DNA of 64,000 bases from positions 62,001-126,000 of the forward strand of contig NZ_SJEX01000002.1 in assembly GCF_005930495.1 (NCBI RefSeq). The letters are read 5' to 3'. A model generated the notes under the pieces. That model was given only the letters and a program-made list of their open reading frames with translations. It had not been told where the DNA came from and did not search any database. A program made the position numbers and the translations under genes. This document shows, piece by piece, positions 52,627-54,765 of the stretch. The stretch's first letter is position 1. Each line of letters opens with the position of its first letter. This DNA is from Modestobacter excelsi. GTDB taxonomy: Bacteria > Actinomycetota > Actinomycetes > Mycobacteriales > Geodermatophilaceae.

Positions 52627-52942
52627 ACGCGGCACTGGCGGTGTTGACGCCGGGCGGCAGCTCGCCGGTCAGCTTCTTGTAGACCGCTGCGGCGCCGCGG
52701 GCGGCGACCAGCCGACCGGAGGCGTACAGCACGCCGGACACCGCGGCCCAGGCCAGCGCATCGGGCCAGGTGACGCCCGGGGCGGCCGGGTTCTTCGGCG
52801 GCGGGTAGCCGCGCACCCTCAGCCACGCGGTGTCGGCCGTCTTCTTCACCACGATGCCGGCCGGGATCGCCATCGCCGGGCCGAGCACCTTGTACAGCAG
52901 CGGGGTCTTCGGCTTCTCGGTCTTCGCCACGTCGCTGATCAT
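52625..52942 (-). CDS. DUF4235-like small membrane protein
   Basis: 105 residues. PLLYKVLGPAMAIPAGIVVKK at the start and ALAWAAVSGVLYASGRLVAARGAAAVYKKLTG at the end match the two-helix pattern of DUF4235 proteins, which are common in actinobacteria and of unknown role. ATG at 52942 (MISDVAKTEKPKTP) is preferred; a longer start at 52969 would overlap the divergent glycosylase promoter. It ends convergent to ppx in the shared terminator. Confidence 0.75.
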   Translation of the reverse strand: MISDVAKTEKPKTPLLYKVLGPAMAIPAGIVVKKTADTAWLRVRGYPPPKNPAAPGVTWPDALAWAAVSGVLYASGRLVAARGAAAVYKKLTGELPPGVNTASAA

Positions 52943-52985
52943 GCCCGCCGCCGGAACCGTCCGGACCATCTGGTCTGCTGGGGCG

Positions 52986-53753
52986 GTGGCACGTGACGCC
53001 GACGGCTACCCCGTCACCCGCACCGCCGCCGGGGTGCTGCGCGGCGCCGCCGGCACCCGCGAGCTCGCCGTCCTGGACGAGCGGATCTCCGGCTGCCGCG
53101 CCTGCCCGCGGCTGGTGGCCTGGCGCGAGGAGGTCGCGCAGGTCAAGCGCGCCTCGTTCCGCGACCAGGAGTACTGGGGGCGGCCGGTGCCGGGGCTCGG
53201 CCCGGCCGACGCCCGGATCGCCGTGGTCGGGCTCGCGCCGGCCGCGCACGGCGGGAACCGGACCGGGCGGGTGTTCACCGGCGACCGCAGCGGCGACTGG
53301 ATCTTCGCCGCACTGTGGCGCGCGGGTCTGGCGAACCAGCCGACCTCGGTCTCGAAGGACGACGGCCTCGAGCTGACCGACGTCCGGGTCTGCGCCGCGG
53401 TGCGCTGCGCCCCGCCGGCCAACGCCCCCACGCCCGAGGAGCGGGACACCTGCTCGCCGTGGCTGGCCCGGGAGCTGGCGCTGCTGCCGCGGCTGCGGGT
53501 CGTCGTCGTCCTCGGCGGCTTCGGGTGGACGGCGCTGTGGCCGGTGCTCGGCGCGGCGGGCTGCGCACTGCCCCGGCCGCGTCCCGCGTTCGGGCACGGG
53601 GTGGAGGTCGCCCTGACGGGTCCCCGCGGTCCGGTCACCCTGCTGGGCAGCTACCACGTCAGCCAGCAGAACACCTTCACCGGCAAGCTGACCGAGCCGA
53701 TGCTGGACGCCGTGCTGACCCGTGCCACCGAACTGGCAAGCTCTGGTCCCTGA
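52986..53753 (+). CDS. Family 5 uracil-DNA glycosylase (UDGb type)
   Basis: 255-residue DNA repair enzyme with an iron-sulphur cluster. Cysteines C37 and C40 (SGCRACP), C141 and C156 form the likely 4Fe-4S site. Motif A, GLAPAAHGGNRTGRVFTGDR (about 82-101), is the family 5 pattern with no catalytic Asp/Asn of family 1; motif B is YHVSQQNTFTGKLT near 222-235. It would remove uracil and other deaminated bases, useful in a GC-rich genome. GTG start at 52986; the stop lies one base before the tRNA at 53755. Confidence 0.94.
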   Translation: MARDADGYPVTRTAAGVLRGAAGTRELAVLDERISGCRACPRLVAWREEVAQVKRASFRDQEYWGRPVPGLGPADARIAVVGLAPAAHGGNRTGRVFTGDRSGDWIFAALWRAGLANQPTSVSKDDGLELTDVRVCAAVRCAPPANAPTPEERDTCSPWLARELALLPRLRVVVVLGGFGWTALWPVLGAAGCALPRPRPAFGHGVEVALTGPRGPVTLLGSYHVSQQNTFTGKLTEPMLDAVLTRATELASSGP

Positions 53754-53754
53754 C

Positions 53755-53828
53755 GCCCCCGTAGCCCAATCGGCAGAGGCAGGCCCCTTAAAAGGGTCCC
53801 AGTGTCGGTTCGATCCCGACCGGGGGCA
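53755..53828 (+). tRNA. tRNA-Leu(TAA)-like, class I shape with short variable loop
   Basis: Acceptor GCCCCCG pairs with CGGGGGC, discriminator A, no encoded CCA (CAC follows). D-arm GCCCAATCGGCAGAGGC resembles tRNA-Leu D-arms; anticodon arm GGCCC-CTTAAAA-GGGTC gives anticodon TAA; T-arm GTCGG-TTCGATC-CCGAC. The variable region is only CCAGT (five bases), where bacterial tRNA-Leu should carry a long extra arm. It starts one base after the glycosylase stop. The isotype by anticodon is Leu; the shape is unexpected. Confidence 0.8.
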
Positions 53829-53949
53829 CACCCTCACCTGTGGTCGGCGGCATCCGGGAACTCGCCGGGCCGAGCTGGCGTTGGACCAGACAGCGTGGGG
53901 TGGACCAAGTGAGCCCCACGGACCGACCAGTCACCTCGAGGAGATGACG

Positions 53950-54765
53950 ATGCCGAGCAACAACCCGGTCTTCAGCCGGGGCTTCCCCGCGGCCGGCAAC
54001 AGCCAGTCCGGCGGTTGGGGCGCCGGCCCGCAGCAGACGTACGGCGGGGCACCCACCCAGTACGACCCGTACTCGGCCCCGTCGCCGTACGCGGCCACCG
54101 GCCGGGCCTACATGACGATGGACGACGTCGTCACCAAGACCGGCCTCACCTTCGTGGTGACCGTGCTGGCCGCCGCCGCGACCTGGTCCCTGCCCGGCAA
54201 CACGGGTGTGGCCCTGGCCCTCCCGGCGATCCTGATCGCGCTGGTCCTCGGCCTGGTCATCTCGTTCAAGCAGATCGCCAACCCCGCCGCCACCCTGGCC
54301 TACGCGGCCCTGCAGGGCATCGCGGTCGGGGCGATCAGCGAGATCTACGCCGCGAACTTCGGCGGCAACATCGTCATGCAGGCGGTGATCGGCACCTTCG
54401 GTGTGTTCGCCGGGATGCTGGTGGTCTACAAGACCGGCGCCATCCGGGTCACCCCGAAGCTGACCCGCTGGGTCGTCGGTGCGCTGTTCGGTGTGCTGGC
54501 GCTCGTGCTGGTCAACCTGATCGCCAGCTTCTTCACCCCGGGTGGCCTGGGCCTGCGCGACGGTGGTCCGGTCGCGATCATCTTCAGCCTGGTCGTCATC
54601 GGTGTGGCGGCGTTCTCGCTGCTGCTGGACTTCGACATGGCCGACGAGGCGATCCGCCGCGGCGTCGCGCCGAAGTTCGCCTGGTACATCGCCTTCGGCC
54701 TGCTGGTGACGGTCGTCTGGCTGTACCTGGAGATCCTGCGGCTCCTGAGCTACTTCCGCGAGTGA
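53950..54765 (+). CDS. Bax inhibitor-1/YccA-like membrane protein
   Basis: 271 residues. A 55-residue Gly/Pro/Ser/Tyr-rich cytosolic start (NPVFSRGFPAAG...) is followed by MTMDDVVTKTGLTFVVTVLAAAATW and about seven TM helices, ending in FGLLVTVVWLYLEILRLLSYF, as in the BI-1/YccA/YbhL family. ATG 53950 is preferred over 53944 because GAGGAG stands six bases before it. Function in bacteria is unsettled (membrane quality control or ion leak). Its TGA is the first base of repeat copy F. Confidence 0.9.
   Translation: MPSNNPVFSRGFPAAGNSQSGGWGAGPQQTYGGAPTQYDPYSAPSPYAATGRAYMTMDDVVTKTGLTFVVTVLAAAATWSLPGNTGVALALPAILIALVLGLVISFKQIANPAATLAYAALQGIAVGAISEIYAANFGGNIVMQAVIGTFGVFAGMLVVYKTGAIRVTPKLTRWVVGALFGVLALVLVNLIASFFTPGGLGLRDGGPVAIIFSLVVIGVAAFSLLLDFDMADEAIRRGVAPKFAWYIAFGLLVTVVWLYLEILRLLSYFRE

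Follow-up and report, generated by a model that had tools for sequence, protein, structure and literature searches.

Can a bacterial leucine tRNA do its work without a long variable arm? The arm is given as a feature of tRNA-Leu, tRNA-Ser and tRNA-Tyr in the parts covered here of two reviews (PMC7609411, PMC4033280). The window, by which we mean the whole 64,000-nucleotide stretch of Modestobacter excelsi DNA that was analysed (G000:C92:62001-126000), holds a gene with the leucine anticodon TAA and a variable loop of only five bases. This gene, its parts and its two neighbours are as follows.

52830..53753, + strand: upstream open reading frame ending one base before the tRNA, stop codon TGA at 53751-53753; presumably a uracil-DNA glycosylase
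53755..53828, + strand: class I tRNA-Leu(UAA) gene, no encoded CCA (ARAGORN, RF00005, direct reading)
53755..53761, + strand: 5' acceptor strand GCCCCCG, pairing with 53821-53827 (RF00005 alignment; each position paired in 103 or 104 of the 104 family sequences)
53764..53780, + strand: D arm GCC-CAATCGGCAGA-GGC with 3-bp stem, C13 facing A22, A14 A15, and G18 G19 (direct reading; family comparison)
53782..53798, + strand: anticodon arm GGCCC-CTTAAAA-GGGTC, anticodon TAA at 53789-53791 (ARAGORN, RF00005)
53799..53803, + strand: variable loop CCAGT, 5 nt (direct reading; family comparison)
53804..53820, + strand: T arm GTCGG-TTCGATC-CCGAC (direct reading; RF00005)
53821..53828, + strand: 3' acceptor strand CGGGGGC and discriminator A73 (direct reading; RF00005; A73 in 104 of 104 family sequences)
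53950..54765, + strand: downstream open reading frame, which we take to be a Bax inhibitor-1 family membrane protein; a relative also lies 3' of the tRNA in Nonomuraea (L001)

The gene is called as tRNA-Leu(taa) at 53755-53829 by ARAGORN, and RF00005 matches it from end to end at 53755-53828 with 51.8 bits (E 8.2e-10), exceeding the gathering score of 29. Direct reading gives an acceptor stem of 7 bp (GCCCCCG/CGGGGGC), a D stem of 3 bp (GCC/GGC), an anticodon stem GGCCC/GGGUC that encloses CUUAAAA, a variable loop CCAGU and a T stem GUCGG/CCGAC. The anticodon pairs with a leucine codon, and the loop of 5 nt falls short of the 10 nt or more of a class II variable arm. C13/A22, the 3-bp D stem, GGCAGA, a variable loop of the form NNAGT and A73, the marks of what we call the short-form tRNA-Leu(UUR) family, are all present. 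The initial annotation had reported the TAA anticodon, A73 and the five-base loop, along with a start one base past the upstream stop and the lack of CCA, and it was right on each of these points. As read from its sequence, the window gene is real and probably a working leucine tRNA without the long arm. A scan of 53500-54000 for sigma-70-like promoters, a kind of scan that covers few actinobacterial promoters, found none. A spurious open reading frame (53722-54765) traverses the tRNA into the downstream gene, and automatic start-site prediction there may err.

The source genome, a draft of 5,255,906 bases in 178 contigs, gave 47 matches to RF00005, about 46-47 of them distinct tRNA sequences. 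On the matching stretches, ARAGORN recognized five leucine tRNAs: CAG, GAG and TAG are long-armed, at 51.9-53.3 bits in the RF00005 search, and TAA and CAA are short-looped. The CAA gene, at C144:15824-15897, has in common with the window gene the acceptor GCCCCCG/CGGGGGC and the D loop CAATCGGCAGA. As both are short-looped, both UUA/UUG readers found in this genome are class I. The initial annotation had pointed to a second, class II tRNA-Leu(UAA) as something to look for; none was found in the source genome by RF00005 with ARAGORN, and the class II pattern TTAA-N22-32-GTTCRANNC had zero matches across it. A profile search placed one leucyl-tRNA synthetase (LeuRS) locus over the curated cut-off, as two pieces in one frame, and the remaining matches, which score far lower, are taken as paralogous synthetases.

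We propose that the window gene encodes a functional class I tRNA-Leu which, with its class I CAA sister, provides the only UUR readers found in the source genome, and that it is one member of a family that is frequent among Actinomycetota and occurs in phages too; we put the probability of this reading at about 0.88. In our model, the gene would be transcribed, perhaps together with the upstream open reading frame, and CCA would be added post-transcriptionally. The single LeuRS would then charge the tRNA with leucine, as the meaning of the codons and the single LeuRS locus suggest, and probably recognizes A73 and the corner of the D and T loops rather than a long variable arm. The charged tRNA would read UUA and probably, by wobble, UUG. 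Because UUR stands for leucine in relatives and only class I readers were found, one LeuRS most likely charges both classes. Of the roles that the initial annotation had entertained, that of a minimal UUA reader thus gains support: no other UUA reader turned up in the source genome, and UUR codons fall mostly at leucine positions in relatives.

The gene is widely distributed. BLAST with the 74-base tRNA matched 50 of 59 genomes, its own included. Within its own family, a copy of at least 91% identity is present in 33 of 35 genomes (again including its own), the two genomes without one being 80% and 72% complete, and TAA was read as the anticodon in all 28 of the copies fetched. An additional copy at 74-76% identity, the same level as the source-genome CAA gene, occurs in 32 of the 35, its CAA anticodon having been read in the source genome only. 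Across 296 actinobacterial genomes, the pattern TTAAAA-N14-GTTCRA, which other loop sequences escape, matched 81, of which 49 from 13 families look tRNA-like by eye. The remaining matches look like chance, many of them from genomes also matched by a reversed control pattern; that control matched once in 3 of the 49 picked genomes. Of all 296 genomes, 157 contain a match to a class II UAA pattern, a figure inflated by chance matches. The pattern was absent from 47 of the 49 short-form genomes as against 92 of the 247 others (Fisher p 1.7e-15, uncorrected for kinship), and the matches in the two exceptional genomes do not look tRNA-like. Genomes of either type, short or class II, occur within families f23 and f59 according to the sequences shown, and within f30 and f32 according to match counts alone, among the matches listed. 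The presence of both types within these four families suggests that the type of UAA tRNA was switched more than once.

For CAA, a class I pattern matched 32 of the 296 genomes, 13 of them tRNA-like by eye, including three in a Streptomyces-like genus; ARAGORN made nine of 11 loci from this search tRNA-Leu(caa) and two no tRNA. The class II CAA pattern was swamped by chance matches and yields no count. A scan of named genomes returned at least 119 stretches, and the 80 loci read contain 81 matches, namely 72 complete short tRNAs, eight 3' halves and one chance match. Among the matches listed, complete copies lie in Mycobacterium, Mycolicibacterium, Nocardia, Gordonia, Rhodococcus, Corynebacterium and Dietzia, as well as in Nocardioides, Microbacterium, Arthrobacter, Pseudonocardia, Klenkia and Blastococcus. 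A few copies come from bins labelled Rokuibacteriota, Chthonomonadales, Neomegalonema, Flavobacteriaceae and Coriobacteriia, where binning errors or viral contigs may be responsible. One contig binned as Flavobacteriaceae has, in a cluster of ten tRNAs, a tRNA-Leu(tag) with a class II-like D arm and a short variable loop (L146:1121-1194).

Phages carry the short form too. Viral contigs gave at least 120 stretches; 78 of the 80 read have a complete short tRNA-Leu(UAA), with C13/A22 in 77 and A73 in all 78. BLAST matched 20 named phage records, and each of the five examined has a short tRNA-Leu, already annotated there as tRNA-Leu. It is UAA in Rhodococcus phage Trina, where it lies beside a class II CAA tRNA, and in Synechococcus phage S-CREM1 and Sinorhizobium phage Phosso; it is CAA in Streptomyces phage Genie2 and Corynebacterium phage StAB. 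The oddity is not particular to the source genome: many actinobacteria and their phages have the short form, which is best seen as a regular variant that has been overlooked.

The eight 3' halves among the named genomes begin at the anticodon loop of a short tRNA-Leu(UAA) (L120 in two places, L124, L133, L143, L160, L175 and L177). They are probably attachment-site remnants, and integrating elements therefore seem often to target the short tRNA-Leu(UAA) gene.

What, then, would such a tRNA read? The initial annotation had stated that UUA is very rare, and it is. In the window, 39 open reading frames picked by composition (16,521 codons) contain one TTA, which is the tRNA's own anticodon inside a spurious frame; in 400 kb of the source genome, 280 frames picked in the same way contain 5 in 95,919 codons, about 0.05 per 1000. 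This scarcity would suit a developmental switch of the bldA type, in which the level of the tRNA controls rare genes with UUA, and UUA is likewise rare in bldA organisms. We nevertheless consider such a switch unlikely here. The bldA gene of Streptomyces encodes a bacterial class II tRNA-Leu(UAA), a different structural type from the window tRNA, and all five genomes tested from the Streptomyces-like genus have an ordinary class II UAA tRNA of 84-85 nt, so the link to bldA that had been drawn fails as a structural match. The short form is also present in low-GC relatives with freer use of UUA (L117, L179, L193).

Altered charging, whereby the tRNA would bring another amino acid such as Thr, Arg, Lys or Asn to UUA, is very improbable. 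It would accord with the class I body and with a crude letter score for that body, which ranks class I Thr, Arg, Lys and Asn tRNAs of the source genome next behind the CAA sister. The codons speak against it. Leucine columns (consensus of at least 60%, columns below being excluded) hold 44 of 47 UUG codons in 30 LeuRS sequences, a set drawn from short-form genomes and others alike; the LeuRS of the source genome has one UUG, where all 29 other sequences have Leu. By the same threshold, 118 of 135 UUG and both UUA codons are at leucine columns in RpoB, for which 30 sequences were compared, each from one of the 49 short-UAA genomes. For frames near the tRNA in relatives (70% threshold), UUA is at leucine columns in 50 of 58 cases, 39 of the 58 being from L117, L179 and L193, and UUG in 163 of 211, with 16 at Phe columns, a less clean figure that unfiltered frames may explain. 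The leucine test for UUA is thus one of low-GC relatives, the codon being too rare in the source genome. As UUG and UUA fall mostly at leucine positions in these relatives, wholesale recoding in their lineages is disfavored, and the altered charging that the initial annotation had also raised finds no support.

Comparison across the family bears on whether the gene is alive. From 145 matches (cellular ones and five phage loci; an uncounted number too close to the end of a locus were skipped), 12 were dropped, and merging identical ones among the remaining 133 left 104 distinct sequences, 93 UAA and 11 CAA. Invariant or almost so among the 104 are U8 A9 (102), C13 facing A22 (104), A15-U48 (103) and A73 (104), and the variable loop ends in AGT in 96. 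Every stem position is paired in at least 94. All four stems include positions that vary on both sides; examples are 10-25, with GC/TA/AT/CG, and 28-42, with CG/GT/AT/GC/TA. In acceptor pair 1 the variation is confined to one side, and pairs 12-23 (last of the D stem) and 53-61 (last of the T stem) are invariant. Such paired changes are the mark of a working tRNA and back the cloverleaf. As 79 of the 104 have no encoded CCA, its lack is ordinary for the family. In 8 of the 11 distinct CAA sequences, A31 faces C39, leaving an anticodon stem of four pairs (source copy C144:15824-15897, in L045 and L301; also L302-L311).

That the gene is a pseudogene, a decoy or a non-decoding signalling tRNA is hardly credible, although UUA is nearly absent from the sampled source genes and the minimum-energy fold of the UAA gene as a single strand is not a cloverleaf (z -2.48; an equal or better fold in 3 of 200 shuffles), the CAA gene folding nearly into one by the same method: the complete stems, paired changes and invariant A73 of the 104 sequences argue against a pseudogene, and the decoy suggested in the initial annotation fits poorly with a genome in which no second UUA reader was identified. 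There is equally little chance that the gene merely backs up a class II tRNA-Leu(UAA) missed among the 178 contigs, as completeness is given as 100%, the three other class II leucine tRNAs were found at 51.9-53.3 bits, and the class II pattern matches just once in each of G008 and G024, relatives assembled in one contig, the match being no tRNA by ARAGORN in the former and, by look only, not tRNA-like in the latter. The rejected match in G008, Ser-like with TAA (L328, G008:C1:356142-356183), looks like the 3' half of a tRNA-Ser left by an integrated element.

On the origin of this class I tRNA-Leu, two features point different ways. The geometry of its D arm (three pairs, open 13/22, GGCAGA) is that of the class II Leu(CAG) and Leu(GAG) of the source genome. 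By the crude letter score, class II Leu tRNAs are outside the best eight or nine, and the D arm itself scores closer to the class I tRNAs for Asn, Lys, Ala, Trp and Thr, which leaves room for a non-leucine ancestry. The lineage may either have lost its arm or been recruited from another class I tRNA, the letters pointing to class I and the D-arm geometry to leucine. It is tempting to speculate that much of Actinomycetota leaves the whole UUR half of its leucine box to a separate class I lineage, charged by LeuRS without the arm, that replaced class II UUR tRNAs several times, perhaps via phages. We hold this broader view tentatively, at somewhat less than even odds.

The type of LeuRS does not appear to be the cause. 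Among 30 actinobacterial genomes, 24 have a long type (57-100% identical to the query) and six a short type (35-39%; G040, G042, G066, G261, G320 and G335). This explanation was rejected, as G066, G320 and G335 carry the short-form UAA tRNA with a short LeuRS, and G040 and G042 match the short tRNA by BLAST at 91% and 89%, on sequence identity without an anticodon reading. The short LeuRS sequences (L262-L267), compared with the long ones (L238-L261), have no matches near query residues 195-249 and 714-751.

Nor is the position of the gene fixed. Among 29 close-relative loci, both neighbours flank the tRNA in 11, the downstream one alone in 11, the upstream one alone in 3 and neither in 4; at least one of the two is present at 15 of the 81 tRNA matches from named genomes, among the matches listed. 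The upstream protein is 89% identical in Blastococcus sp. CCUG 61487 (L153) and 78% in Klenkia brasiliensis (L165); together with the tRNA relatives in these two genera, this points to Geodermatophilaceae as the probable family of the source genome. Nonomuraea gerenzanensis (L001), with a tRNA 85.5% identical, has only the downstream gene in common. From these mixed counts and the Nonomuraea case, the locus is partly conserved and its position is not required.

A literature search, with most subscription papers outside its scope, found no description of a short-form tRNA-Leu(UUR) family. It found one printed short-loop bacterial tRNA-Leu, a UAG tRNA outside the UUR family, in the part covered of PMC6582537. 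A figure legend in the part covered of PMC2265525 notes short arms for a number of Sec, Ser, Tyr and Leu tRNAs of a tree, members unspecified; the part covered of PMC11541572, on Mycobacterium tuberculosis tRNAs, does not mention class I Leu, and that of PMC13092985, on four-pair anticodon stems, has no tRNA-Leu.

The surprise is how common the short form is, not the single gene. If mycobacteria, nocardiae and their relatives decode UUR with class I tRNAs, the leucine identity rules that derive from E. coli would be incomplete. One LeuRS would then have to accept two tRNA shapes, and annotation or isotype models built around a long arm could give the short genes a wrong label. Should a separate class I lineage prove true, class II could no longer be taken as the general rule for bacterial leucine tRNA. 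For genetic-code engineering, a natural short leucine tRNA is on offer.

Several known systems invite comparison. Bacterial class II tRNA-Leu(UAA), bldA included, has the anticodon UAA and the D-arm features of the class II Leu(CAG) and Leu(GAG) tRNAs of the source genome, but it differs in its long variable arm and is nearly mutually exclusive with the short form across the sampled genomes. Metazoan mitochondrial tRNA-Leu(UUR) is class I, organellar and charged by the mitochondrial LeuRS; as a class I leucine tRNA for UUR, it resembles the short form in build. The mycobacterial tRNA cluster described in the part covered of PMC6582537 holds a tRNA-Leu(TAG) that likewise combines a leucine anticodon with a short variable loop in an actinobacterium, but it reads CUA, lies in an extra cluster and has a large-loop isoacceptor elsewhere in the genome. 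In the nematode nev-tRNAs, as presented in the part covered of PMC4033280, tRNA class and anticodon are also mismatched, but in the reverse sense, a class II arm being joined to the anticodons of class I isotypes.
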